Source: Acidaminococcus intestini DSM 21505
Lineage (GTDB): Bacteria > Bacillota > Negativicutes > Acidaminococcales > Acidaminococcaceae
Direction: 5' to 3'
Length of the DNA: 52,058 nucleotides
Assembly (NCBI RefSeq): GCF_000425045.1
Contig: NZ_AULA01000013.1
Location: forward strand, 1-52,058
Positions 416 through 37,756 of this stretch are shown one piece after another. A program made the position numbers and the translations under genes. The notes beneath the pieces were generated by a model. That model made no database searches. It was not told where the DNA came from and saw nothing but the letters and a program-made list of their open reading frames with translations. Within the stretch, counting starts at the first letter, position 1, and each line of letters starts with the position of its first letter.

Positions 416-607
416 TCAAGTAAAACTGCTTTTTCCTGAGCTAATCCATTCATCAATGGATGCTTTTTTGAAACGCCATTGCCGCCCAATTCGCACAGCC
501 GGGATTCCCCTTCCCGACCGGATCCAAAAATGGACAGTTACGGAGCTTACCCCTAGATATTTTGCTACTTGTTCGATTGAAATCCATTGATCTTTAACGT
601 CTGCCAT
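416..607 (-). CDS. Small excisionase-type helix-turn-helix protein, copy 1
   Basis: 63-residue protein that is essentially one MerR/excisionase-type DNA-binding domain (HTH_17, TIGR01764-like). It starts WISIEQVAKYLGVSSVTVHF, then WIRSGRGIPAVRIG, the wing RQWRF and a C-terminal DEWI helix. The start at 607 is chosen because GGAGG lies ten bases upstream; the longer frame back to 697 has no ribosome site. Such proteins bind DNA as recombination directionality factors or as small regulators. No recombinase or other gene is co-transcribed, so the target is unknown. It is the most divergent in sequence at the recognition helix among copies 1-3. Confidence 0.8.
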   Translation of the reverse strand: MADVKDQWISIEQVAKYLGVSSVTVHFWIRSGRGIPAVRIGRQWRFKKASIDEWISSGKSSFT

Positions 608-1140
608 ATGTACCAATCCTCCATATTCTCCAAATTCCTTTTCTGCATTGCATAGAACGTGCACCAGAATTCCACTATTACAGTACCATACCGACATCTA
701 TTTTTCACTTCTCAATTTCTTACATTATTTTGTAATAGTTTTTATTCAAAAAATTGATTTTCTCTATATCCTTGTCCAAATAAGGACGTTCTGGGCAATC
801 AATTTCCGGTATGTTCATTTTTTCTTTATCTTTTACGGGATCTATCGTTTTTTATGCACGTTTTTTTCTTTTCCCCCATCAAGTGAATCTTTTTCCTATC
901 TGGTTATACCTAATACATCTACTAGTTGATTTCTCTAATCGCAGCGCCTCTTTTCATGGAAACGCCAAAGCGCTTCGTAATCATCTCTTTATTTTACTAA
1001 ACAAAGAGACTTTATTATTATACTATAGTTCGAATTGTATGGGACTTTAAAAAAATTGAAAAATACGCTATAACAAATAAATATTACTTGCAATAACTTT
1101 TTTATCAAAAAGTTAGGGTTAACCATTGGGTTCTCATAAG
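608..1140. other. AT-rich intergenic region, no gene recognised
   Basis: The roughly 530 bases between helix-turn-helix copies 1 and 2 are very AT-rich, with only short frames that lack ribosome sites or recognisable domains. An AACTTTTT/AAAAAGTT hairpin lies at 1096-1115. The region presumably carries the promoter of copy 1, but I could not pick a convincing -35/-10 pair. Confidence 0.5.
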
Positions 1141-1184
1141 AAAAAACTCCCCACAGAAGACGTTACCATCCTTCTTTGGGGAGT
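1141..1184 (-). terminator. Rho-independent terminator of helix-turn-helix copy 2
   Basis: Read on the minus strand, an AACTCCCC...GGGGAGTT stem extended by AAGAAG/CTTCT pairing is followed directly by a run of T. It lies about 45 bases past the stop of the gene at 1231-1422 and makes that gene a single-gene transcript. Confidence 0.8.
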
Positions 1185-1230
1185 TCCTACATGAGGGGAC
1201 CGGCAGCAAACCAACATCCACCCATTCATT

Positions 1231-1422
1231 TCAACTGAAATAGCTTTTTCCCGATTTAATCCATTCATCAATATCCGAGATCCGAAAACGCCATTGACGG
1301 CCAATACGGACAGCAGGGATGTCCTTTCCCGAGCGGATCCAGAAACGTATGGTCACAGCGCTGATGCCAAGATATTCAGAAAGTTCCTCAATGGAGATCC
1401 ACTGTTTCTCAATCTTTGACAT
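1231..1422 (-). CDS. Small excisionase-type helix-turn-helix protein, copy 2
   Basis: 63 residues, single HTH_17/MerR-like domain: WISIEELSEYLGISAVTIRF, then WIRSGKDIPAVRIG, RQWRF and IDEWIKSGKS. The start at 1422 follows AAAGGAGG with a seven-base gap, one of the best ribosome sites of the set. The core is nearly identical to copy 3 (one difference over about 40 residues), which points to recent duplication. It is monocistronic, with its own terminator at 1141-1184. A regulatory or directionality role is inferred from the family only. Confidence 0.82.
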   Translation of the reverse strand: MSKIEKQWISIEELSEYLGISAVTIRFWIRSGKDIPAVRIGRQWRFRISDIDEWIKSGKSYFS

Positions 1423-1832
1423 AGAGCATCCTCCTTTCCGTGATTTGATGGGCCATGCCTTCGCAAAGTAAGCAGAAATCATTATAGCAGATTTATATTT
1501 CCTTTTCAATTGATTTTAATATATTATTTGATATTTATATTTATTTTATTATTAAATCAATTATCAATTATATAATTTTTTCTTTATACTGAAATTGTTT
1601 ATTCTTATTCCATCTTTCACTATGATTCTTTTATTCTATTTGTAAAAGATGAAAATTTCATGAAGATTTTACTCTTGCCAATTCATCATCGCGATTTTCT
1701 TCTGTTTTCTCTAAATCTCTTTTGTTTTTACCTTTTTATTGTAGTGAATGCATCCTATCAAAACAACAAGTTCCAATCTATAGGAATAGCAAGATCTACA
1801 AAATCATAAGAAAAAAATTATTTATGAATGCA
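1423..1832. other. AT-rich intergenic region, no gene recognised
   Basis: About 400 bases of AT-rich sequence upstream of copy 2 and beyond the terminator of copy 3. No frame with a ribosome site or recognisable product is seen on either strand. It should hold the copy 2 promoter, which I could not place. Confidence 0.45.
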
Positions 1833-1866
1833 TGAAAGAAGCGGGGCCTATTCTCTTATGCCCCGC
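1833..1866 (-). terminator. Rho-independent terminator of helix-turn-helix copy 3
   Basis: Minus strand GCGGGGC-loop-GCCCCGC stem followed by TTCTTTC, about 40 bases past the stop of the gene at 1907-2092. Placement and structure match the terminators of the sister copies. Confidence 0.7.
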
Positions 1867-1906
1867 ATTTATCATCCGATACGAATCAGCAGCCATTTTC
1901 AGGCTG

Positions 1907-2092
1907 TCATACGAGTTCACTTCTTCCGGATTCAATCCATTCATCAATCTCTTCAATCCGAAAGCGCCATTGACGGCCAATCCGGACAGCCGGAATATCT
2001 TTTCCCGAACGGATCCAAGAGCGAATGGTCACGGCACTGATACCAAGATACTCAGACAGCTCTTCAATGGATATCCACTTATGGTCCACCAT
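1907..2092 (-). CDS. Small excisionase-type helix-turn-helix protein, copy 3
   Basis: 61 residues (MVDHKWISIEELSEYLG...), the same single DNA-binding domain as copies 1, 2 and 4. Two ATG codons are adjacent; the second (2092) is preferred because GGGAG lies six bases upstream, against three for the first. The core differs from copy 2 mainly at one recognition-helix position (Ser for Phe after VTIR) and in the C-terminal tail (EEIDEWIESGRSELV). That could change DNA specificity while the scaffold is kept; this is inference. Confidence 0.8.
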   Translation of the reverse strand: MVDHKWISIEELSEYLGISAVTIRSWIRSGKDIPAVRIGRQWRFRIEEIDEWIESGRSELV

Positions 2093-2142
2093 CATCCTCT
2101 CCCATCTCTTTCCGTATTGATAACCATGATACAGCTTCATGT

Positions 2143-2169
2143 TTATTACGGTTATTATGGTTATTATGG
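2143..2169. repeat. Three tandem 9-bp units upstream of copy 3
   Basis: TTATTACGG, TTATTATGG, TTATTATGG lie in direct tandem about 50 bases upstream of the copy 3 start. The position suits an operator or a slippage-prone promoter element, but this is suggestive only. The rest of 2170-2341 is AT-rich with no gene seen. Confidence 0.6.
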
Positions 2170-2341
2170 TATTTATTTTCTTTAGTTGGTATTATACTAC
2201 AAAAAGAAATATAATAAAAGTTGCAATTTTCTTACTTATTATCAAAAAAAACGCTAATATATTAAATTATATAAAATTATACGAAATTATATAGGATAAT
2301 ATATATATTTTCTTTTTCCTTATAGTTTTTATTATTCGCAC

Positions 2342-2396
2342 AAAAAAGAGACCCCTAAGCTTAATGATGCTTACTGAACCAGCCTCAGGGTCCCTC
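2342..2396 (-). terminator. Rho-independent terminator of the dead helix-turn-helix copy
   Basis: Minus strand stem GACCCTGAGGCT...AGCTTAGGGGTC followed by TCTTTTTT. It lies about 70 bases past the stop of the pseudogene at 2466-2660, so the whole gene-plus-terminator unit was duplicated or conserved even though the gene is broken. Confidence 0.7.
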
Positions 2397-2465
2397 ACTT
2401 TTTACCCGATTCTATAAAAAGTCTTCCGATCCTGTAGACGGAGGAATATGTGCACACGCCTTTGT

Positions 2466-2660
2466 TCAGGCGCTGAAATTGCTTCTTCCTGATTGGGTCC
2501 ATTCATCGACGTCCTCGATCTTGAAGCGCCACTGACTGCCAACCCGAACAGCTGGAATATCCTTTTTCGAACAGATCCAAGAGCGATTGGTCACGGTACT
2601 GACATCAGGATATTCAGAACGTTCTTCAATGGATATCCACTTTCTTTAAATTTGAGATAT
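2466..2660 (-). pseudogene. Dead copy of the excisionase-type helix-turn-helix gene
   Basis: Translating the minus strand gives KWISIEERSEYPDVSTVTNR, then SWICSKKDIPAVRVGSQWRF and DVDEWTQSGRSNF, clearly homologous to the four neighbours. The position of their start codon is ATA instead of ATG, and codon 5 is TAA. The helix-turn-helix core has lost conserved residues (LG to PD, RSG to CSK, GRQ to GSQ). A good AAGGAG ribosome site is still present upstream of the lost start. The reading frame is otherwise open, so decay looks recent or the remnant is tolerated. Confidence 0.75.
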
Positions 2661-3059
2661 AGCCAGCCTCTCCTTACATGAAATCCATGAGTGACTGAGA
2701 AGAAGACGCATCTCGATTTCCTTGGCATCCTGAGAAAAGCCTGACGCGCATTTATGAGCAGATGGCAATCCTTTTGACCTCTTATTCATGGCGTATTCCG
2801 CAGCCCAGCAAATCGTATAAAAAGATGAAATCAGTCCCCACCTTTCGTCATCGTGTCCGAATCCCAAGTCCTCATCAAAAAGAAATCATCTTTCTTATGA
2901 TTCTTCATATCTACTTTTTCTTATCATTCTATTCATCCTTTGATGATTTAGATTGTACTAAAATTTAAATTACATGTAAATTTAGTATTTTCTAATTATA
3001 GCGATATCCATAGTAGATAAGGATCCACCCGCAGGATACAAACACATTGTCTTCATCGC
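2661..3059. other. Intergenic region, no gene recognised
   Basis: Short frames here have no recognisable product. The longest minus-strand frame (2867-2646) merely runs through the former ribosome site and the TAA of the pseudogene. No RNA gene is recognised. Confidence 0.4.
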
Positions 3060-3091
3060 AAAAAAGACCCTGCCCTTTTTCAGGCAGAGCC
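3060..3091 (-). terminator. Rho-independent terminator of helix-turn-helix copy 4
   Basis: Minus strand GGCTCTGCC-loop-GGGCAGGGTC stem (with G-T pairs) followed by TTTTTT, about 30 bases past the stop at 3124. Confidence 0.75.
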
Positions 3092-3123
3092 TTCTTTCCC
3101 ATGGAAAAAGAGGAAAAAATCGG

Positions 3124-3318
3124 TCAATCATCGAAATTGCTTTTTCCTGATTTGATCCATTCATCAATATCCTTGATTCGGAAACGCCACTGCCGCCCCA
3201 CCCTTTTTCCAGGCAGGTTCTTTCCACTGCGCAGCCAGTAGCGAACCGTCACAGGACTGACACCGATATATTCGGCGACTTCTTCAATATTGATCCAACG
3301 CTCTTTATTTTCATTCAT
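3124..3318 (-). CDS. Small excisionase-type helix-turn-helix protein, copy 4
   Basis: 64 residues starting MNENKERWINIEEVAEYIGV; one MerR/excisionase-type domain ending DIDEWIKSGKSNFDD. The start at 3318 is set by alignment with the sister proteins; the upstream GAGGG is a weak ribosome site. The recognition region (SPVTVRYWLRSGKNLPGKRV) differs from copies 1-3, so its DNA target may differ. It is the last member of the array before tRNA-Leu and has its own terminator. The function beyond DNA binding is unknown. Confidence 0.8.
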   Translation of the reverse strand: MNENKERWINIEEVAEYIGVSPVTVRYWLRSGKNLPGKRVGRQWRFRIKDIDEWIKSGKSNFDD

Positions 3319-3677
3319 AAGCCCTCGCAATCTACGGCCGCCAGAAAAATCAATTCTGGCTCCTACCGCCCTGCACAGTTCATCCTTATGGAAGGTATGA
3401 ACCCCTACGACGCTCACCGTATCTCTTTCAGGAATCGTGCTGCGATTTATTTTTTGAATGATGACGATTTATCTTTCATTGAATCATTCTTATATCAAAT
3501 ATATTATATAGTAAATATTTTATAACTTAAAGTTTTGTCCTTTATATCACGATGTTAAAGTAATATTAAGTACCAAGTTTTACAATTTATAAAAATCTAC
3601 ATCTTTTATTTATCAATTTGATAACAAACCCTCCAAATTGTAGACAACTCTTCTCCACGCCTTCCCAAAATCAACAT
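3319..3677. other. AT-rich intergenic region, no gene recognised
   Basis: About 360 AT-rich bases between helix-turn-helix copy 4 and the tRNA-Leu promoter. I see no gene. It presumably holds the promoter of copy 4 on the minus strand. Confidence 0.45.
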
Positions 3678-5488: not shown

Positions 5489-5691
5489 TTATTGTCACCT
5501 CCTTTCGGTGTGGAGCCCTTGATTGTGCCGCCGATGTATCCCAAAAGGCCGGTCACAATGCTCATGGCCAAATTATCGAGCCCATAAAAAATAGCCATTA
5601 TCAGGCTCGCTGAAAGAGCAATAATGACTAGAATGTTTTCGATATCAATTTTTTCAAACTGGAACAACTCAACCACCGCCTTACACGTCAT
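5485..5691 (-). CDS. Holin-like small membrane protein
   Basis: 68 residues with one clear membrane segment (NILVIIALSASLIMAIFY), a second weaker hydrophobic stretch (MSIVTGLLGYIGG) and a charged C-terminus (KGSTPKGGDNK). This is the size and layout of small phage holins, which make holes that release the endolysin. It overlaps the amidase by four bases. The family was not identified precisely; the call rests on topology and position. Confidence 0.6.
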   Translation of the reverse strand: MTCKAVVELFQFEKIDIENILVIIALSASLIMAIFYGLDNLAMSIVTGLLGYIGGTIKGSTPKGGDNK

Positions 5692-6016
5692 CCGGAAGCT
5701 TGTGCGGAAGGCTGCTAAAGCGCTTATAGATTCCGCTTACAATACCGTTCCCTCCAAGGTCACAGTATGCGGCATACATTGAGCCCATGATTTCCACCGT
5801 ATTAATCGGGGCATATCCTTTTTCAAGGCATGTCTCCATTCCAGTGATAAGACGGTCGCGTAGCAGGGCCTGCACTCCCTTGACCAAAGCTTCATTTCGT
5901 ACTTCCTTTTCGTCTTCTTGCTCTTTAATGCGTTTTCGCTGCTGTTTCCACTCATACAACAGGATGCCTGAAAATAAGGATGGCACGCCTGCTAAAAGAA
6001 TCTGCCACCAATCCAC
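5681..6016 (-). CDS. Phage membrane-anchored protein of the lysis cassette
   Basis: 111 residues. An N-terminal hydrophobic segment (WWQILLAGVPSLFSGILLY) is followed by a basic, probably coiled helix (EWKQQRKRIKEQEDEKEVRN) and a soluble domain. The start is GTG at 6016, fixed by AAGGAGG seven bases upstream and by coupling: its GTG shares the G of the TAG that ends the preceding gene. It could be a second holin component or a spanin-like accessory. No family was recognised. Confidence 0.6.
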   Translation of the reverse strand: MDWWQILLAGVPSLFSGILLYEWKQQRKRIKEQEDEKEVRNEALVKGVQALLRDRLITGMETCLEKGYAPINTVEIMGSMYAAYCDLGGNGIVSGIYKRFSSLPHKLPDDV

Positions 6017-6174
6017 TATTTAGCCTCCTTAGTTGTGCTGTCGGCGGTCTTGCCCGGTTCAGCATCCTTGGGCGCTTCTTCCTGGTAAAGGCAGCACTTC
6101 GGATTCTGGCAGGTACCGTCATCACGTAAAACCTTCAAGCAACGAACACATCTCTTCTTGAGTTTAAATGCCAT
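6016..6174 (-). CDS. 52-residue cysteine-rich phage protein
   Basis: The product begins MAFKLKKRCVRCLKVLRDDG and contains Cys9, Cys12, Cys22, Cys27 and Cys28, a plausible zinc site of the C-x2-C...C-x4-C type, followed by an acidic low-complexity tail. The start at 6174 follows AAAGGAGG. The stop TAG overlaps the GTG of the next gene, a sign of translational coupling. It has no recognised family and lies between tail-fibre accessory and lysis genes. Confidence 0.6.
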   Translation of the reverse strand: MAFKLKKRCVRCLKVLRDDGTCQNPKCCLYQEEAPKDAEPGKTADSTTKEAK

Positions 6175-6190
6175 GATTGTGGTCCTCCTT

Positions 6191-6643
6191 TTATTCGTTC
6201 AATGCTTTCATATCCGAATCAAACTGTGCATCGAGATTTGTCAGTTCAGTTCTGAGTTCGTTCTGAGTATCCGCATCACCGGCAAGAGCCGCAGCCAGAT
6301 AATACTTCATGAGTTCTTCTTTGTCAGATTCATACGTAGACTGCAGCTCTGCCTGTTTTTTTGCTTTCTGCTCCTCGGCTGTTGGCTCCGGTGCAATGTA
6401 TGCGGTCGGCTTACCATCTGCACCTCGTACATATTCGCCAGTCAGGTACTGGTTATAATCTGCTGCGGAAATGACATCTACGACAGCTGCATCCTCGAAC
6501 AAATCTTTAGCCTTTTCCGTTAAGGAAGCCAGCTTTCCTGTATTCTTGTCCTTGCCAGGGTCAAAGTCGCAGATCAGCGAACCAACGCGCTTGCCATCTG
6601 CATCGAACCCCGCCACGTAGTAATCAACGTTCGTACCGTTCAT
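6191..6643 (-). CDS. Tail-fibre-proximal phage protein, function unknown
   Basis: 150 residues. The N-terminal part (MNGTNVDYYVAGFDADGKRV) looks like a small beta domain. The C-terminal 60 residues are rich in Lys, Glu and Ala and probably form a coiled coil (EEQKAKKQAELQSTYESDKE). Proteins of this layout are common just after tail-fibre genes and often act as fibre assembly chaperones or accessory tail proteins, but no specific family is claimed. The start follows GGAGG at an eight-base gap. The tyrosine recombinase and cassette array lie between it and the fibre gene. Confidence 0.6.
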   Translation of the reverse strand: MNGTNVDYYVAGFDADGKRVGSLICDFDPGKDKNTGKLASLTEKAKDLFEDAAVVDVISAADYNQYLTGEYVRGADGKPTAYIAPEPTAEEQKAKKQAELQSTYESDKEELMKYYLAAALAGDADTQNELRTELTNLDAQFDSDMKALNE

Positions 6644-6659
6644 TCATTAATCCTCCTAT

Positions 6660-6691
6660 AGTAAAATGGCCTCCGTAAAGGAGGTTTTTTA
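6660..6691 (+). promoter_or_regulatory. Hairpin covering the ribosome site of the tyrosine recombinase
   Basis: GGCCTCC-GTAA-AGGAGG followed by TTTTTT lies immediately before the ATG at 6694. The 3' arm is the AAAGGAGG ribosome site, so folding would hide it; the hairpin plus six T also looks like an intrinsic terminator. Either reading implies low or conditional expression of the recombinase. The structure is seen; the effect is inferred. Confidence 0.55.
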
Positions 6692-6693
6692 TT

Positions 6694-7719
6694 ATGCGTA
6701 AACCAAATGGATACGGCTGCATCAAACGGCTGTCCGGTAACCGGAGGAGGCCGTTTGTTTTTGTAATATCGGAGAATGGTAAGCAAAGACCTGTTGAATA
6801 TTTTACCAACCAGATTGACGCTGAAATCTTTCAAGCTGATTACAACAAAACTCATAACCATCGCTCCCTTCCTGGTCATCAAATCACATTGGAAGAACTG
6901 TACCATCGGTGGCTGCCAGCACACACGGCAGATACCTCGCCATCAAAATCGACACTGTGCAGCTATGAAAATTCATTCAAGCATCTCTCATCCCTGCACC
7001 AGGAACCGTTTGCCAGTCTGAAATACATGGACTATCAAAGAATCATAGATGATATGAGAAAAAGCGGGCTGTCGTACAGCTCGCTTAAAAAAGTACGGTC
7101 ACTCATTTCATTACTTTCTCAGTATGCCAGTAAAATCGAGCTAGCCAACAAGAACTATGCTCCTCTCTTATCCATCGGAAAGAACAAGCAGGTCCGCCCG
7201 CACAAGCCGTTTAGTCGGCAGAAGATAAACCGTTTATGGAAAGCAGTTTGCAATGATAACGTTGATACTGTGCTGATATTGCTTTATACGGGTATGAGAG
7301 TCGGAGAACTGCTCCATCTCCATAAGTCAGACGTCAACATCCGGCAGCGTTTCATCCGGATCACCAAGAGCAAAACCGTTTCCGGCATCCGGATTATTCC
7401 CATCCATCCCAGAATCCTTCCATTGATAATTGCCAGGATGGATTCTCCCGGAACCACTCTTCTGAGTGACACCAACGGGAATCCATATGACTACAGTCGC
7501 TATTGCATCATCTGGCGCTCAGTCATGCAGCTCATCAACGCTGCCGGCCATACAACACACGATTGCAGGCATACTGTCACAACCCTGCTTGACAATGCCG
7601 GGGCCAACGAAACTGCCAAGCGGCGCATCTTAGGGCACGCGGGCGGCGATGTCACCGAGCGCGTCTATACCCACAAAAATATTAGGCAGCTCCGGAAATG
7701 CATTGAACTATTAAAATAA
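6694..7719 (+). CDS. Tyrosine recombinase, probable tail-fibre invertase (Rci-like role)
   Basis: 341 residues with an N-terminal SAM-like core-binding region (about 60-160) and a C-terminal phage-integrase catalytic domain. The catalytic set is visible: Arg in TGMRVGE, His and Arg in HDCRHT, His in ILGHAG and the nucleophile Tyr in ERVYTHK. It is transcribed against the late operon and sits directly beside the array of alternative tail-fibre ends, far from both prophage ends, while a serine recombinase sits at attR. That context argues for local DNA inversion (as Rci does for plasmid shufflons) rather than prophage integration. The role is inferred from position; the family assignment is firm. 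Confidence 0.85.
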   Translation: MRKPNGYGCIKRLSGNRRRPFVFVISENGKQRPVEYFTNQIDAEIFQADYNKTHNHRSLPGHQITLEELYHRWLPAHTADTSPSKSTLCSYENSFKHLSSLHQEPFASLKYMDYQRIIDDMRKSGLSYSSLKKVRSLISLLSQYASKIELANKNYAPLLSIGKNKQVRPHKPFSRQKINRLWKAVCNDNVDTVLILLYTGMRVGELLHLHKSDVNIRQRFIRITKSKTVSGIRIIPIHPRILPLIIARMDSPGTTLLSDTNGNPYDYSRYCIIWRSVMQLINAAGHTTHDCRHTVTTLLDNAGANETAKRRILGHAGGDVTERVYTHKNIRQLRKCIELLK

Positions 7720-7744
7720 TGTTACTAATACGATACTGTAAAGC

Positions 7745-7927
7745 AGATGGCAACCACGATTTCACTATATATTTTGTGATTTCGTGGTTGTTACTACTGT
7801 TTCCAGCAAATCTGATGAAAATACGGTGATTCCAGAATTACTGATTCCCAGAAATGTCCACAACCAGCGTAAATGCTGGATTGCAATAAAAGAAAATCTT
7901 TTCAGGGACCGTGCATATTCTCCATAG
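7745..7927 (+). pseudogene. Possible degenerate fourth tail-fibre cassette
   Basis: After CAG-A-TGG (7744-7750), a one-base-insertion variant of the CAGTGG site core, the frame from TGG stays open for about 59 codons and stops at 7925-7927, shortly before the next good site (7954). It includes KSDENTVIPELLIP and RKCWIAIKEN. Size and position match the other cassettes. Against it, the site is imperfect, a strong hairpin (CAACCACGA/TCGTGGTTG, 7751-7790) that may terminate the recombinase gene lies inside, and similarity to the other cassettes is weak. Confidence 0.3.
7751..7790 (+). terminator. Stem-loop after the tyrosine recombinase gene
   Basis: CAACCACGA and TCGTGGTTG pair perfectly, with inner TCAC/GTGA pairing, about 30 bases past the recombinase stop. 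There is no clear T-run after it (TTACTACTGTTT), so termination is plausible but unproven. Confidence 0.45.
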
Positions 7928-7953
7928 TTCTCTCCTCCAAAAGCAACCAGTAT

Positions 7954-7961
7954 ACAGTGGG
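7954..7961 (+). repeat. Inversion site B (ACAGTGGG)
   Basis: Core ACAGTGGG within TATACAGTGGG, 11 bases identical to the site in the expressed fibre gene but on the opposite strand. The reading frame through the core is A-CAG-TGG-G, the same as at the other sites. Confidence 0.7.
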
Positions 7962-8170
7962 TATATCCAAGAAGCAATAACGCGTTCAGCTTCCCTATCG
8001 CATTTACATCTAACTGGACGCTAATTCCATGTTCAGAAGCTCCTGGCACTGGATATTATACTTTTTTGGAAGTTGTTCGGAATGGTATGACAGGAGCAAC
8101 AATCAATACATACTCTGGCAGTGGTCAGATATTAGATCATACAATTAGGGCTATCGCCATAGGATGGTAA
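7955..8170 (+). other. Silent tail-fibre C-terminal cassette B
   Basis: Open frame without start codon or ribosome site, read from CAG-TGG in the site core: QWVYPRSNNAFSFPIAFTSN, then NWTLIPCSEAPGTGYYTFLE, ending HTIRAIAIGW and TAA at 8168-8170. FPIAF and a terminal IAIGW are typical of the last domain of phage tail fibres. It lies on the strand opposite to the expressed fibre gene. Inversion between 7954 and 8527 would fuse it in frame to the fibre N-terminus. Its stop is one base before site C, so cassettes are packed end to end. Confidence 0.7.
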
Positions 8171-8178
8171 ACAGTGGG
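8171..8178 (+). repeat. Inversion site C (ACAGTGGG)
   Basis: Core within ACAGTGGGGAA, 11 bases identical to the site in the expressed gene (opposite strand). It is a direct repeat of site B and inverted relative to site A. The three sites share the looser pattern K-T-A-W-ACAGTGGG-K-A-W. Confidence 0.7.
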
Positions 8179-8351
8179 GAAGTAGTTATGAATCGCAAAC
8201 TCTTACGCTACCGATACAAAGCAAGATATTGGTCATTATCGGGATGCACGAAGGCACTACAAAACAAACGGTTTCTTACTCACAATCGGAGAATAAATGG
8301 GTTGGTTCAGATAGCTCTCTTTATTTGTTTTATATTGCTATTTGCAAATAG
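8172..8351 (+). other. Silent tail-fibre C-terminal cassette C
   Basis: Open frame of 59 codons plus stop from the site core: QWGSSYESQTLTLPIQSKIL through KWVGSDSSLYLFYIAICK. It has no start codon of its own. It resembles the expressed end (QWG..., then S/T-x-T-L-P-L/I, ending AICK). Its stop codon and the stop of the expressed gene lie in one 16-bp palindrome (8337-8352), so the two cassettes are tail to tail. Inverting the 357-bp block 8171-8527 would exchange them exactly, keeping the frame and both stops. Confidence 0.75.
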
Positions 8352-8352
8352 C
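8337..8352. repeat. 16-bp palindrome encoding the ends of two opposed cassettes
   Basis: GCTATTTGCAAATAGC is a perfect palindrome. Read on either strand it gives Ala-Ile-Cys-Lys-stop, the final residues of the expressed fibre (minus) and of cassette C (plus). Confidence 0.85.
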
Positions 8353-8913
8353 AAGAAAGGAAAGCGTTTCAGGTTCTTTATTAAGGCTAGATGTGACCAT
8401 CGTCCCACTCAGACCGTTATACTGCGCTGAAACGCCGTAATGCTGGATATACCCATTAAGCATAGTGGAGGACAGCGGTAATGTGAAAGAACCAGAGCCA
8501 TTGATGATTTGGAAAATTCCCCACTGTATAATTAGCCCGCCGAAAAAGGAGCCCAGGCAAACATACCCATTTTGTGCGATATTGTACTTCACTCCGGATG
8601 CCGTCAGCACCATCTTGAGAAGCTGCCCGAACCAGCTACCTGTTTCAAGCGCCGTAATGGCTGTGATGGCCGTAGTGAGGGCCAGCTTTTTGATGATGTC
8701 ATCACCGAGTGTTGCGATTTTCTCAAACAGCTTAAACCGGTTTTCGTGAGCAGCGTCTGATTCGTCGTGCCCCTTCAGCGCCTTTCCTCCGGATTCATCT
8801 AATTCTTGAGCCTTTGCGTCGATTGCGTCCATATTGGCATTGATATCAGCAATGTCAGCAGCATCGTTGTAATCCGGCTTAATCAAATTTAAAAAAGCAG
8901 TTCTCAGTGCCAT
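8338..8913 (-). CDS. Tail fibre protein, currently expressed form
   Basis: 191 residues. The N-terminus (MALRTAFLNLIKPDYNDAAD) is the baseplate-attachment type seen in PBSX-like tail fibres; a helical region to about residue 85 follows, then a collar-like segment (AQNGYVCLGSFFGGLIIQWG) and a C-terminal domain ending LSFLAICK. The C-terminal part after QWG (about 60 residues) is the switchable portion: the site ACAGTGGG (8520-8527, minus) encodes Gln-Trp at the junction. The start at 8913 follows AGGAGG. It should bind the host receptor, so swapping this end would change host range. The fibre function is inferred from position and sequence style. Confidence 0.8.
   Translation of the reverse strand: MALRTAFLNLIKPDYNDAADIADINANMDAIDAKAQELDESGGKALKGHDESDAAHENRFKLFEKIATLGDDIIKKLALTTAITAITALETGSWFGQLLKMVLTASGVKYNIAQNGYVCLGSFFGGLIIQWGIFQIINGSGSFTLPLSSTMLNGYIQHYGVSAQYNGLSGTMVTSSLNKEPETLSFLAICK
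8520..8527 (-). repeat. Inversion site A inside the expressed tail-fibre gene
   Basis: ACAGTGGG on the minus strand at the codons for Gln-Trp-Gly. It is in opposite orientation to sites B and C, as required for inversion. It marks the boundary between the constant N-terminal and variable C-terminal parts of the fibre. Confidence 0.75.
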
Positions 8914-8924
8914 TGATTTTCCTC

Positions 8925-9551
8925 CTATTCAACATCTTTAATCATCGAGTCTTTCCAAGTCCTCGTCTTCATATATTCCCAGTCATGGCGCAAGGCATAG
9001 TTATCAGCCCATTCGATTCCTTGTTCTTCCTCCCAAGTTCTAGCCTTCAAGTTTTTCCAAAATAGTGGATAGTAAAAATTCCGCCAGACGTTATAGTCAT
9101 AGCGGAATTCATAATCAATATGAGCTGGTTTAATTTGGTCGACAGCTGCGACAAGGTCGTCAGTATAAGGGGCTGGTTCCAAATAATGCCGAAATGCATA
9201 TGTAATCGTCGCGTCTCCATCGTATTCTGCGAGACAATCTCCTGTGTAGATTCCGTCGCAAATTTGCTGTATAACCGTCATCGACGCAAATCGCTTCGCT
9301 AGCCAGGCAGACTGGATATTCACCCGTCGAGCATCCAATGTTGCGTCTTTGCCAGGCCTAAGCCCCAGGTCTTTTTCTAAGACGCTGCAGCCATGCTCAT
9401 CCAGGCGGTCAAAAAACATGTTGTTGTAGTCCTGGTCTAATTTTTCGTTTGCGCTTTTCATATCTGTATCAACGGCGGCATAAAGGGCTTTAACCCACGG
9501 GTCCTGCCTATACCACGCATGCAGCGCACGCAGCATGACTTTATCAAGCAT
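8925..9551 (-). CDS. Baseplate/tail protein, YmfQ-like (XkdU, DUF2313)
   Basis: 208 residues. The DUF2313/YmfQ family of contractile-tail phages, which links baseplate wedge to fibre, is recognised from the helical N-terminus (DKVMLRALHAWYRQDPWVKA), the LGLRPGKDATLDARR segment and IKPAHIDYEF near residue 140. An extra aromatic C-terminal stretch (WRNFYYPLFWKNLKARTWEE) follows the usual end. The second ATG (9551) is preferred because AGGAG lies nine bases upstream. It overlaps the end of the baseplate J gene slightly. Confidence 0.8.
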   Translation of the reverse strand: MLDKVMLRALHAWYRQDPWVKALYAAVDTDMKSANEKLDQDYNNMFFDRLDEHGCSVLEKDLGLRPGKDATLDARRVNIQSAWLAKRFASMTVIQQICDGIYTGDCLAEYDGDATITYAFRHYLEPAPYTDDLVAAVDQIKPAHIDYEFRYDYNVWRNFYYPLFWKNLKARTWEEEQGIEWADNYALRHDWEYMKTRTWKDSMIKDVE

Positions 9552-10605
9552 AGGTAACATCTCCTAACACTGCGACCGATTCTTTCGGGATGACGATATT
9601 TGATGTCCCGCCGTTCACCTGCAGGTCTGCATAGTCAAGGACGCCCGTGGTTCCAATGATGGCAGCGCCAATTCTGGCGCAACTTATATAGTCTGTTTCA
9701 GCCTCTGTCGCGGCGAATGCCTGCGACTTAATGTACTGCTCAATCGCAGCCGTAATATTTTGTTTGATTTCCTCTAAGTCTTCAGATACAGATACAGATA
9801 CAGATACAGATACAATATCAGCAGCCTTCACTGTACAGACTGCACCGACTGGAGCCTGTCCATCCCCGCGCCCTGTTTGGCCAGGGTCAATATAATCCTG
9901 CACCGCCTTCACGAGAGTTTCCGACGCCGGCTTATTGTCGTTCCCGATGATTACGACCTTAACAGTATTCTTACCAGCCCAATGCGGAAAAACGCGGGCA
10001 TGGCCGACACCGTCCACAGCCTTCGCCCAAGCTAGATAGTGATATTTGTTGCCACATGTTGCAGGAATCTGTAGTTTTTCGTAATAGCGCTTCCGAAATT
10101 CGTCATCAGTTTCGACGGCATATCCACCTTCAGCCGGCGCCGGATTCGTAACGGCACCGATGCCGTTAATTGTAACGGGCATCTTAACAATCGTGTCTGC
10201 TGCGACATTTCCCTCTGTCCCTGGGCTGAGTGCCTTAACAATCACGGTATCACCCTGGGCAACTGTTTTAGTTTCGGCAGCAGCAAATTGCACCCCGTCT
10301 TCGGTTTCAAAAAGATCTCCTCGGATGATTCGACCCGTGCCAGCAATGATTTTTACAGTTGCTGTCGCACTAACCGCGGCGTTGCGCATGATTCCAACTC
10401 GTTGCATGCACCAAGCATCTAATTCAGGACCTTCTAGATTATCAACGTTCTGTTTCTCCTCGATTAGGAAGGCTTTTTTCCACAACTGATACTGCCCGAA
10501 AGAAACTCCGCGCGTAATGTCGTAGGTTGGGAATCCTTCAGTTTTTTGATAGTCGTCCGACACACCTTTCAGAATCGTATTGTGAATTTGGTTAATCGTA
10601 TACAT
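9544..10605 (-). CDS. Baseplate J-like protein (XkdT)
   Basis: 353 residues with the Baseplate_J layout: an N-terminal segment ending in LWKKAFLIEEKQNVDNLEGP, GIMRNAAVSATATVKI, the central ETDDEFRKRYYEKL motif and a C-terminal VNGGTSNIVIPKESVAVLGD. It forms the wedge of the contractile baseplate. The start at 10605 (second Met) sits nine bases after GAGG. A CAGATA-type hexamer repeat encodes a Ser-Val run (SVSVSVSVS) near residue 280. Its 5' end overlaps the DUF2634 gene. Confidence 0.9.
   Translation of the reverse strand: MYTINQIHNTILKGVSDDYQKTEGFPTYDITRGVSFGQYQLWKKAFLIEEKQNVDNLEGPELDAWCMQRVGIMRNAAVSATATVKIIAGTGRIIRGDLFETEDGVQFAAAETKTVAQGDTVIVKALSPGTEGNVAADTIVKMPVTINGIGAVTNPAPAEGGYAVETDDEFRKRYYEKLQIPATCGNKYHYLAWAKAVDGVGHARVFPHWAGKNTVKVVIIGNDNKPASETLVKAVQDYIDPGQTGRGDGQAPVGAVCTVKAADIVSVSVSVSVSEDLEEIKQNITAAIEQYIKSQAFAATEAETDYISCARIGAAIIGTTGVLDYADLQVNGGTSNIVIPKESVAVLGDVTYA
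9783..9812. repeat. Five tandem CAGATA units inside the baseplate J gene
   Basis: Five perfect hexamers. On the coding strand they give alternating Ser and Val codons in frame, so gain or loss of units changes the protein by two residues without shifting the frame. Confidence 0.85.
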
Positions 10606-27410: not shown

Positions 27411-28145
27411 TCAGAACGGTATGGCTTTAACTTCATCCGGGATATCTCTCGGCATGCTGCCGTCCGGTTCGTCGTATCCATCCTGGCTCCATCGCTTTAG
27501 GATGCCTGCGACATATTTTATTGTCCGTTTTCCTCGCAGTACAGCTCGATCAATGGCCTTAATGCACAAATCCTTGCCATATTCTTCTAGCAGCGATAAT
27601 AGCATTTCCGATTCACTTCCACTTTGGAGAGGATGAATTGTTTTTTGAAAATGCTCGACGATTATTTTTTGGTCGCTGCTTTCCTTAGCGTTTATACGTT
27701 TATATGTTTCTTTAGGTATGTGGTCACAGACGCCAATAGATGCGTCACCAACGCCAATAGATGCGTCACCAACGCCAATAGATGCGTCACCAACGCCAAT
27801 AGATGCGTCACCAACGCCAATAGGATTTTCATTGCTTGCGTCACAGACGCCAAAGAAATGAATCGCATAAACAGGAGATTGCCGTCCTCTGCGAGAGACT
27901 TTAATTAATCCAGCTTCTTCCAGCTCTGCACGAGCTCGTTCAATGCTTCTGCGCTTCATATGCGTATCCTGCTCAATTTCGGACATCGAAAGGTTAAAGC
28001 TCTCACGCCATCCAGTCATATTGCAATAATGAAGCAGGGAAAACCAGAGAAGAATTGAATTTGATGATAGTGCATGGTCTTCCAGCCAGGCGTGGAAAGC
28101 ATTTATCTCTGCAATGTAGTTTATCTTCAATCTTCCCTGCGCCAT
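27411..28145 (-). CDS. Phage replication initiator, winged helix plus DnaD-like domain
   Basis: 244 residues. The N-terminal part (about 1-100) is a winged helix: NLSMSEIEQDTHMKRRSIER, ARAELEEAGLIKVSRRGRQS. A linker of repeated IGVGDAS heptads follows (about 108-135), then a DnaD/DnaB_2-type C-terminus (YGKDLCIKAIDRAVLRGKRT, IKYVAGILKRW). It probably binds the phage origin and recruits the DnaC-like loader encoded immediately downstream. The heptads come from a perfect 21-bp DNA repeat and may double as origin iterons. The start follows GGAGG. Confidence 0.82.
   Translation of the reverse strand: MAQGRLKINYIAEINAFHAWLEDHALSSNSILLWFSLLHYCNMTGWRESFNLSMSEIEQDTHMKRRSIERARAELEEAGLIKVSRRGRQSPVYAIHFFGVCDASNENPIGVGDASIGVGDASIGVGDASIGVGDASIGVCDHIPKETYKRINAKESSDQKIIVEHFQKTIHPLQSGSESEMLLSLLEEYGKDLCIKAIDRAVLRGKRTIKYVAGILKRWSQDGYDEPDGSMPRDIPDEVKAIPF
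27730..27823. repeat. 21-bp tandem repeat in the initiator gene (possible origin iterons)
   Basis: Four perfect 21-bp units (27730-27750, 27751-27771, 27772-27792, 27793-27813) and a partial fifth. The length keeps the frame and gives a seven-residue protein repeat. Iterons inside the initiator gene are known for lambdoid origins, so an origin is plausible; variable linker length is the alternative. Confidence 0.85.
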
Positions 28146-35211: not shown

Positions 35212-36732
35212 ATGCAAAAGAAAATCATTGAGGATAAAGGGAAAGCTGTCATATATGCCAGATACTCGTCCGATCGCCAGCGGGAAGAATCCATTGAAGG
35301 ACAGCTCCGTGTATGTGAAGACTACGCCAAAAGAAACGGTATGACCATCCTACATGTTTACGCCGACAGGGCTCTTTCTGGTCGCAGTGACCAACGCCCC
35401 GAATTTCAAATGATGATTCAAGCGGCCGCTACGCAAGCCTTTGATACAGTCCTCGTTTATAAGCTTAACCGTTTTGCCCGTAATCGCTACGACAGCGCTA
35501 AGTACAAACACAAGTTAAAGAAATACGGCGTCAAAGTTGTCAGTGCCATGGAAAACATCGCCAATGATCCATCAGGCATCCTACTAGAATCCGTCATTGA
35601 AGGAATGGCGGAATACTACTCTGCGGAACTCGCTGAAAACGTCATGAGAGGCATGACGGAGAATGCCCTGGAATGCAAATGGCCAGGTGGAACCGTGCCG
35701 CTAGGATACAAACTCGATGCGGCGCACCATCTTATCATCGACGAACCTGCAGCCAAAACTGTGCGATGGATATACCAAATGGCCCTGGAAGGTCGGCAGC
35801 CATCATCAATCATTCGCGAGCTCAACGCCGCCGGATGCCGCACTGCCTTTGGCAGACCCTTTGGCCGCACAAGCCTCAACACCATTCTAAAGAACGAGCG
35901 ATACATTGGCGCCTTTGTTTGGAATGACATCAAAAAGCCGAATGCAATCCCAGCCATTGTCAATCCTGAAGACTGGCAAAAAGTCCAGGAAATCACGAAA
36001 GCGAAAAAGAAATGCATCGCTAAATCTCGCGGCGAAAACTATCTATTGACTGGGCGGTTATTTTGTGGCCAATGCGGCGGAAGCATGGTTGGCACGGCAG
36101 GGACCTCGAAGATGCAGCGCGTCTATCATTATTACGATTGCGGAAACCATCTGAAGAAAAAAGGATGCACTACAAAGGCGATCCGTGCAGATAAGCTAGA
36201 AGACATTATCTGTAATACGACCACTCAGCTCCTCAGTAATCAAGAGGCTATCAGTGCCATTGCAAAGCAAGCTATCAGCGCTCAAAAAGAGCAAGGACCG
36301 TCCCTGGTCCTTCAGTCGCTGCAGAACCAAAGAACAGAAATTTCAAGGAAACTCCAAAACTGCATAAAAGCTGTCGAGAAAGGCCTTATTAGCCAGACCG
36401 TGACAAATCATATTCAGGACTACGAAAAACAGCTCCAAACCTTAAACGACGATATCAGGAAGGAAGAATTGATGAACCAGGTGCCACGATTGACAGAAAA
36501 ACATATTGAATTCTTTTTCTGGTCCATTTCCCAGCAAATAAAAAAAGCGGACAAGTACAAGAGTATTTTGCTCTCATCCCTCGTCCGCAGTGTCATCATC
36601 TATGGAGATTTTATTGAGATCCAATATAACTACAAAAAAGAACTCCCCATCCTACAGAATCCTGTCAAGATAAAGAGTTCTTATTTGAACAAAATGGTGA
36701 TCCACCCGGGATTCGAACCCGGGACACCCTGA
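35212..36732 (+). CDS. Large serine recombinase (phage integrase)
   Basis: 506 residues. Resolvase domain with the nucleophile Ser in YARYSSDRQREESIEGQLRV, then FARNRYDSAKY; recombinase domain (about 160-270); zinc ribbon LFCGQCGGSMVG ... YDCGNHLKKKGC; coiled-coil region (about 365-430). It catalyses attP x attB integration. The gene abuts attR, as usual. Its last codons (about 12, VIHPGFEPGTP) come from the antisense of tRNA-Lys, so the C-terminus differs between integrated and circular phage. The start follows AGGAGG. Confidence 0.92.
   Translation: MQKKIIEDKGKAVIYARYSSDRQREESIEGQLRVCEDYAKRNGMTILHVYADRALSGRSDQRPEFQMMIQAAATQAFDTVLVYKLNRFARNRYDSAKYKHKLKKYGVKVVSAMENIANDPSGILLESVIEGMAEYYSAELAENVMRGMTENALECKWPGGTVPLGYKLDAAHHLIIDEPAAKTVRWIYQMALEGRQPSSIIRELNAAGCRTAFGRPFGRTSLNTILKNERYIGAFVWNDIKKPNAIPAIVNPEDWQKVQEITKAKKKCIAKSRGENYLLTGRLFCGQCGGSMVGTAGTSKMQRVYHYYDCGNHLKKKGCTTKAIRADKLEDIICNTTTQLLSNQEAISAIAKQAISAQKEQGPSLVLQSLQNQRTEISRKLQNCIKAVEKGLISQTVTNHIQDYEKQLQTLNDDIRKEELMNQVPRLTEKHIEFFFWSISQQIKKADKYKSILLSSLVRSVIIYGDFIEIQYNYKKELPILQNPVKIKSSYLNKMVIHPGFEPGTP
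36695..36700 (+). other. Proposed attR core (TGGTGA)
   Basis: Antisense of the TCACCA 3' end of tRNA-Lys and identical to 4447-4452. See the attL entry; the core is only six bases, so confidence is limited. Confidence 0.5.
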
Positions 36733-37525: not shown

Positions 37526-37756
37526 TCAATAGGACCGATCACCCATGAGGGGATGATGGACCCGTTTCAGTGTCAGTTTCTTAGCAATCTCCACAGCTTC
37601 CTTGAGGTGAACATCGGTTTTAAAATCCTTGTCCTCAAAAATACACATGGGATCGTCCACACCAATCTCACTGCCCGGCATATATAGATATTGGTCATTA
37701 TCTGGATCACCGAGGATGTACCCAGCTCTCAGTTCTTCTGCAATGATTACGGACAC
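37526..37756 (-). CDS. Conserved small protein, function unknown
   Basis: 76 residues from a GTG at 37756, which follows AAAGGAGG at a seven-base gap. SVIIAEELRAGYILGDPDND and an Asp/His-rich remainder; no domain was recognised. It is 28 bases upstream of the hutP family gene and probably co-transcribed with it. Confidence 0.65.
   Translation of the reverse strand: MSVIIAEELRAGYILGDPDNDQYLYMPGSEIGVDDPMCIFEDKDFKTDVHLKEAVEIAKKLTLKRVHHPLMGDRSY

Follow-up and report, generated by a model that had tools for sequence, protein, structure and literature searches.

A probable tail-fibre shufflon beside a tyrosine recombinase in a prophage of Acidaminococcus intestini

The window analysed here (the whole stretch of 52,058 nucleotides, contig NZ_AULA01000013.1 of Acidaminococcus intestini DSM 21505) carries a prophage locus that is very probably a small phage tail-fibre shufflon driven by the tyrosine recombinase encoded at 6694-7719. 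In the mechanism that we propose, this recombinase would recombine short sites of the form TnnACAGTGGkkA lying in opposite orientation; inversion of 8171-8527 would put silent cassette C, and inversion of 7954-8527 silent cassette B, in the place of the expressed cassette A, joined to the constant N-terminal part of the fibre, and one prophage lineage would make virions with three alternative tips. The preliminary description of this DNA had likewise seen a receptor-binding tip varied by DNA inversion, a reading supported by inversion at such sites between related prophages and by the association of the recombinase with arrays. For the Acidaminococcus strain itself, represented by one assembly with one arrangement, we infer that inversion takes place, presumably with the 6694-7719 protein as the catalyst.

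The word ACAGTGGG occurs at 7954 (plus strand), 8171 (plus) and 8527-8520 (minus), each copy being read A-CAG-TGG-G, and belongs to a longer consensus, TnnACAGTGGkkA, with three copies within 7951-8530, two on the plus strand and one on the minus. These are the distal site 1 (7951-7963, plus; TATACAGTGGGTA), site 2 (8168-8180, plus; TAAACAGTGGGGA) and the proximal site 3, which lies within the fibre gene (8518-8530, minus; TATACAGTGGGGA). All three open the same reading phase onto tail-fibre ends of 59-71 amino acids, and the crossover site overlaps the codons of the conserved QWG motif. Silent cassette B (7955-8170, plus) encodes 71 amino acids and a stop (QWVYPRS...IAIGW), its TAA at 8168-8170 directly adjoining site 2; silent cassette C (8172-8351, plus) encodes 59 amino acids and a stop (QWGSSYE...IAICK); and expressed cassette A (8338-8526, minus) encodes 62 amino acids and a stop (QWGIFQI...LAICK). 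Upstream of the sites the frame is open for 9 codons at cassette B, 3 at cassette C and 134 at cassette A, with no ATG in the stretches before B and C. The site coordinates, reading phase and ends given in the preliminary description were thus recovered, as was its statement that B and C lack a start codon. It had also placed the stops of cassette C and the expressed fibre tail to tail in a palindrome, which is present, although its length, read by eye, is 20 bp (TTGCTATTTGCAAATAGCAA, 8335-8354) and not 16 bp.

When any 8-mer was admitted that opened three same-phase cassettes of 55-100 amino acids, on both strands and within 650 bp, this type of array was present in the real 3-kb stretch and in none of 500 dinucleotide shuffles or 41 other 3-kb tiles of the window. 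The 2.28-Mb genome has 12 copies of the pattern TNNACAGTGGNNA, compared to 9 of a reversed-pattern control; three of the 12 are the array sites and the remaining nine are spread over nine other contigs. Across the whole window, the motif with up to two mismatches is not enriched (7 found vs. 7.06 expected). As a separate observation, 8224-8245, inside cassette C, resembles 37686-37707 (a 22-nt near-repeat, 95%); the partner copy lies just past the serine integrase end of the prophage, and the likeness is possibly due to chance.

The tail-fibre gene (8338-8913, minus) encodes 191 amino acids, with a constant N-terminal part of 129 codons (8527-8913, minus) followed by the 62 codons that start at ACAGTGGG, and it comes after a Mu Gp48-like gene (PF10076, slightly under the cut-off) and a Baseplate_J gene. 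Past the distal site lies the proposed invertase gene (6694-7719, plus; 341 amino acids), whose product matches PF00589 (E 1.8e-17), confirming the earlier assignment of a tyrosine recombinase alongside the array. Residues R202, K227, H289, R292, H315 and Y325, which we take to be the catalytic residues, are invariant in 12 aligned recombinases, and residues 1-80 have no Pfam match, yet this stretch is conserved in the family. The separate serine recombinase attributed to the prophage was also found, near its other end, as a large integrase (35212-36732; PF00239, PF07508 and PF13408). These data bear on whether a formerly active shufflon is now locked in this strain, with cassettes B and C as remnants. 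Such a reading could draw on the small size of the array, which has just three cassettes in one arrangement with no second copy in its genome, and on relative G339, in which the recombinase frame next to an array is interrupted by a TAG. However, the recombinase frame of the window is intact and keeps the family-invariant residues, all three sites retain the TnnACAGTGGkkA form, and the silent frames are open across 59 and 71 codons; a locked array is therefore unlikely.

A rearrangement was found in IMG/VR 2883940520_000001 and 2883940520_000002 (L047 and L050; records G100 and G101), two prophages of one genome that are 98.2% identical over 17,008 bp. Their arrays consist of 100%-identical blocks in different order, and exactly two inversions at opposite sites turn the first array into the second with 0 mismatches over 2859 bp, while no single inversion does so. 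The exchange falls inside the shared site, and all five cassettes are retained, so that the deletion between direct sites predicted in the preliminary description is unsupported by this pair. The two arrays are more alike than their flanks, suggesting a recent exchange followed by inversion. A one-contig genome (G334) has two such prophages at ~0.43 and 0.94 Mb with equal site spacings, which argues against a contig artefact. Between L162 and L164, from genomes of two species, the expressed and silent cassettes are swapped, and one inversion turns three alignment blocks into a single block of 3697 columns that is 80.9% identical; similarly, the cassette expressed in L039 is silent in L071 (95.8% identical). 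Comparison of related prophages, proposed earlier as a check, thus yielded the same cassettes both reordered and swapped. In the 380 genomes of the class, with two candidates scored per genome, there was no match to the cassettes of the window beyond one 31-bp stretch. Separately, the expressed and the most distal silent cassette of L083 (6358, plus, and 8422, minus) have 213 identical bases in common, and one tip seems to be duplicated inside that array.

The closest recombinase found (95% amino acid identity) is that of Allisonella histaminiformans DSM 15230 (Dialister histaminiformans in the taxonomy used), which belongs to another order than the Acidaminococcaceae and whose locus has five sites and five cassettes, all different from those of the window. 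In a DNA comparison covering 6000-9600 of the window, similarity near the array extends over 6363-7961, to the base where the core of the distal site ends, and then returns only at 8514-8630; the two prophages thus have the recombinase end and the lead-in in common but not the cassettes. The first of these stretches includes the constant distal flank from the recombinase to the array, with the site 1 core (7720-7961, plus; 93% identical); the second lies around and upstream of site 3 (8514-8630, minus; 72.6%) and is common to an otherwise different fibre gene. As to the host, family f1 of the genome of the window includes G010, in which the match has coordinates equal to those of the Phascolarctobacterium faecium locus L007, in line with a host from the Acidaminococcaceae.

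Altogether, 165 loci yielded 112 distinct recombinases; the family is represented at E <=1e-60 in 53 of the 380 genomes surveyed from the class, and a viral scan kept 80 of 154 relatives at 78 loci. Relatives are built in the same way, with 2 to 13 cassettes, the largest being L071 with 13 sites. Sites were tallied with eight site words at 111 recombinases, L050 being left out as a duplicate place and record L039/L070 being counted twice, once as a partial protein; this tally misses the other site types of L005, L059, L061 and L182. Among the recombinases at least 57% identical to that of the window, 18 of 31 have at least three sites, in all 18 cases in both orientations, and four have two sites. 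Eight of the 13 lacking an array of at least three sites have less than 2 kb of sequence on that side, another (G095) has a 921-N gap exactly at the array position, and four have neither a short flank nor an N gap, one of these being a two-site locus. The short flanks and the gap suggest that assemblies often break at such arrays, and tail-tip diversity may thus be under-counted. Arrays were found at 10 of 16 recombinases with 40-57% identity and, by the eight words tested, at 5 of 64 below 40%. Five loci of remote recombinases were viewed by annotation only, four being annotated without an array and one having no annotation, and no match turned up among 50,697 phage records searched at the DNA level.

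An initial k-mer detector was too permissive, its control tiles scoring 4.0-5.5, equal to small true arrays, and was replaced by a stricter one, in which control tiles reached at least three in 2 of 10 cases and at least four in 0 of 10. The strict detector misses the array of the window because its three sites have only 8 bases in common. A GCAGGAGCAGC repeat near the L060 recombinase was considered as a site array and dropped, as it looked like coding repeats. Two further arrays are recorded as found: at L061 (~5680-7930) the sites are near-perfect palindromes (CCACCCTGCTATCAGGGTGG) and the cassettes, on both strands, start PCYQGG, and in G339 (L180; G339:C1:663043-664050) the locus whose recombinase frame has one internal TAG carries six cassettes (ACAGGGTGGA) and is possibly decaying.

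Among 51 ACAGTGGG sites at 11 loci, T is found at -3 in 94% and A at +9 in 100%, both positions being outside the site-selection criterion, and the core is followed by G (84%) or T; the variants ACAGTGGA and ACAGTGGT likewise open cassettes. In silent cassettes, this T at -3 does not belong to the coding sequence. Eight of the 12 site labels code for QW(G) or QGG, and the codons vary by recombinase clade (CAGTGG, CAGGGG, CAAGGG and CAATGG). On a tree of 47 recombinases, taken from the 112 distinct proteins plus Rci and with site labels set by hand, the labels need 15 changes compared to a shuffled mean of 28.3, with 0 of 200 shuffles as low. The match of word to clade is imperfect, as ACAGTGG alone needs 4 changes and CCAGGGGGG needs 2. 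On this tree the site sequence follows the recombinase clade, and a five-member CCAGGGGGG clade inside the ACAGTGG types indicates that site specificity has shifted.

The fibre of the window has no Pfam match at E 0.001 and has weak matches to tail fibres in PHROG (E 0.009 and 0.03). The fibres of ten relatives match Gp53-like_C (PF21882) above the Pfam cut-off in four cases and below it in four, and Gp10_C in two. A profile built from the window fibre and 79 related rows matched, among solved structures, gp53 of phage AP22 (E 1.3e-11) and, at best 3.6e-5, R-pyocin fibres. The structure model of the fibre lends weak support (mean pLDDT 75.1, pTM 0.48); AP22 gp53 and R-pyocin entries took the top ranks in Foldseek at a best E of 2.2e-3, with no match at E <=0.001. 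Judging by this profile and by the fibres of relatives, the cassettes appear to belong to the Gp53-like or R-pyocin-foot family of fibre ends. Fibre ends of this family bind receptors, and the alternative tips may differ in the receptors they bind and may change the host range.

The same genome holds a second shufflon-like array, at 6895-8384 of L005 on contig C9, with four CCACCGATGA sites adjoining a recombinase 42% identical to that of the window. Its three cassettes read TDE...W(K/R)RTA, the full-length fibre matches Gp10_C, and a fibre of the Gp10_C type is also present in G095. The presence of this related recombinase, which has an array of its own, raises the question of whether inversion in the window is catalysed in trans by another enzyme such as this one. 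Against this, the sites of the contig C9 array have another sequence, and the recombinases of relatives adjoin their arrays, leaving catalysis in trans with hardly any credibility; the adjoining 6694-7719 recombinase is the preferred candidate. The second array also bears on the proposal that there is no site-specific inversion at all, the word being QWG coding sequence, the silent ends duplicated gene fragments and the recombinase an ordinary integrase. QWG is a conserved coding motif, since Q130 and W131 do not vary across 80 aligned rows, although these rows were themselves collected by that site; and distant relatives of the recombinase carry integrase annotations, those in named phages resembling ordinary ones and some lying in lysogeny regions. 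However, this proposal is very unlikely, since the exchange in the rearranged 2883940520 pair falls inside the shared site with 0 mismatches, the conserved T at -3 is not coding in silent cassettes, the codons used differ among recombinase clades, arrays also occur on another motif and fold (Gp10_C), and the prophage has its own serine integrase.

As a tail-fibre shufflon, the locus resembles several known systems, and the kind of system is therefore not new; what is new lies in its host group, its recombination site, the lineage of its recombinase and the coupling of the site to a coding motif. Closest among the known systems is the Rin shufflon, described in prophages of Bifidobacterium (PMC6109161) and Eggerthella lenta (PMC8778435). 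In the sections of those articles that deal with Rin, as here, a prophage carries a constant receptor-binding or fibre part with silent cassettes for the C-terminus, short repeats in either orientation and an adjacent tyrosine recombinase apart from the prophage integrase, and related prophages have inverted arrangements. The Rin hosts in these sections belong to another phylum and class than the host of the window; the Bifidobacterium rix repeat is TTCCCTAACCC (PMC6109161), compared to TnnACAGTGGkkA here; and Rin is described there as lacking an arm domain, residues 1-80 here having no Pfam match and yet being conserved in the family. The cassettes are likened there to the lactococcal TP901-1 receptor-binding protein in Bifidobacterium and to H-type lectins in Eggerthella, and are Gp53-like here. 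This comparison of the Rin and window recombinases is by the articles' description and not by protein sequence.

The preliminary description had named Rci of plasmid R64 and Gin/Cin as precedents, which holds for the kind of logic; it did not name Rin, and Rci is remote (26% identity over 142 amino acids, E 6e-6, on a long branch of the tree). R64 shares with the window locus a tyrosine recombinase, several short sites in both orientations and alternative C-termini of an adhesin, PilV, but its shufflon varies a pilus tip rather than a tail fibre. A scan of R64 gave seven copies of GTGCCAATCC, and its sfx sites (GTGCCAATCCGGT...) differ from those of the window; among the seven matches listed by tblastn of 72,556 plasmid records, none was R64-like. 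Gin, Cin and Min (Mu, P1 and p15B) also exchange tail-fibre ends by inversion, Min having several cassettes according to the part of PMC6109161 that mentions it. They are serine recombinases, whereas the neighbour of the fibre here is a PF00589 protein, and the serine recombinase of the window is 26 kb from the fibre array, has large-integrase domains and is not a neighbouring invertase. The inversion in phiCh1, a haloarchaeal virus, in which Int1 is said to have a role, was reportedly described by Rossler et al. in 2004 (listed among the references of PMC8371274); it resembles the present case in that inversion changes structural proteins in a tailed virus that has tyrosine integrases, but the virus is archaeal and the likeness is one of description, not sequence. 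The earlier remark that no described example could be named in this host group agrees with a search of open-licence PMC articles, made by class and not by single genera, with preprints and most subscription papers outside it, which found no tyrosine-recombinase tail-fibre shufflon in Negativicutes. With the present locus, phage shufflons with tyrosine recombinases, found described in prophages of two actinobacterial genera, extend to this class.

A broader proposal, for and against which we see about equal weight, is that one lineage of Negativicutes phage tyrosine recombinases has specialised as tail-fibre invertases, with a recognition site that has repeatedly moved from the codons of one conserved fibre motif to those of another (QWG, QGG and the TDE/VGE-L-P of the unrelated Gp10_C). 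Because such a site coincides with a conserved protein motif, recombinase and cassettes may form a portable module that could be grafted onto different fibre backbones and hosts. With its 12 site labels, the family gives a natural set of recombinase-site pairs for studying the evolution of site specificity. Elsewhere in the window, four similar small open reading frames lie in a row on the minus strand at 416-3417 (416-697, 1231-1509, 1907-2140 and 3124-3417) and by eye resemble helix-turn-helix or excisionase-type proteins, and a 21-bp tandem repeat (GVGDASI) was found at 27723-27853 within a replication-region gene (27411-28145).
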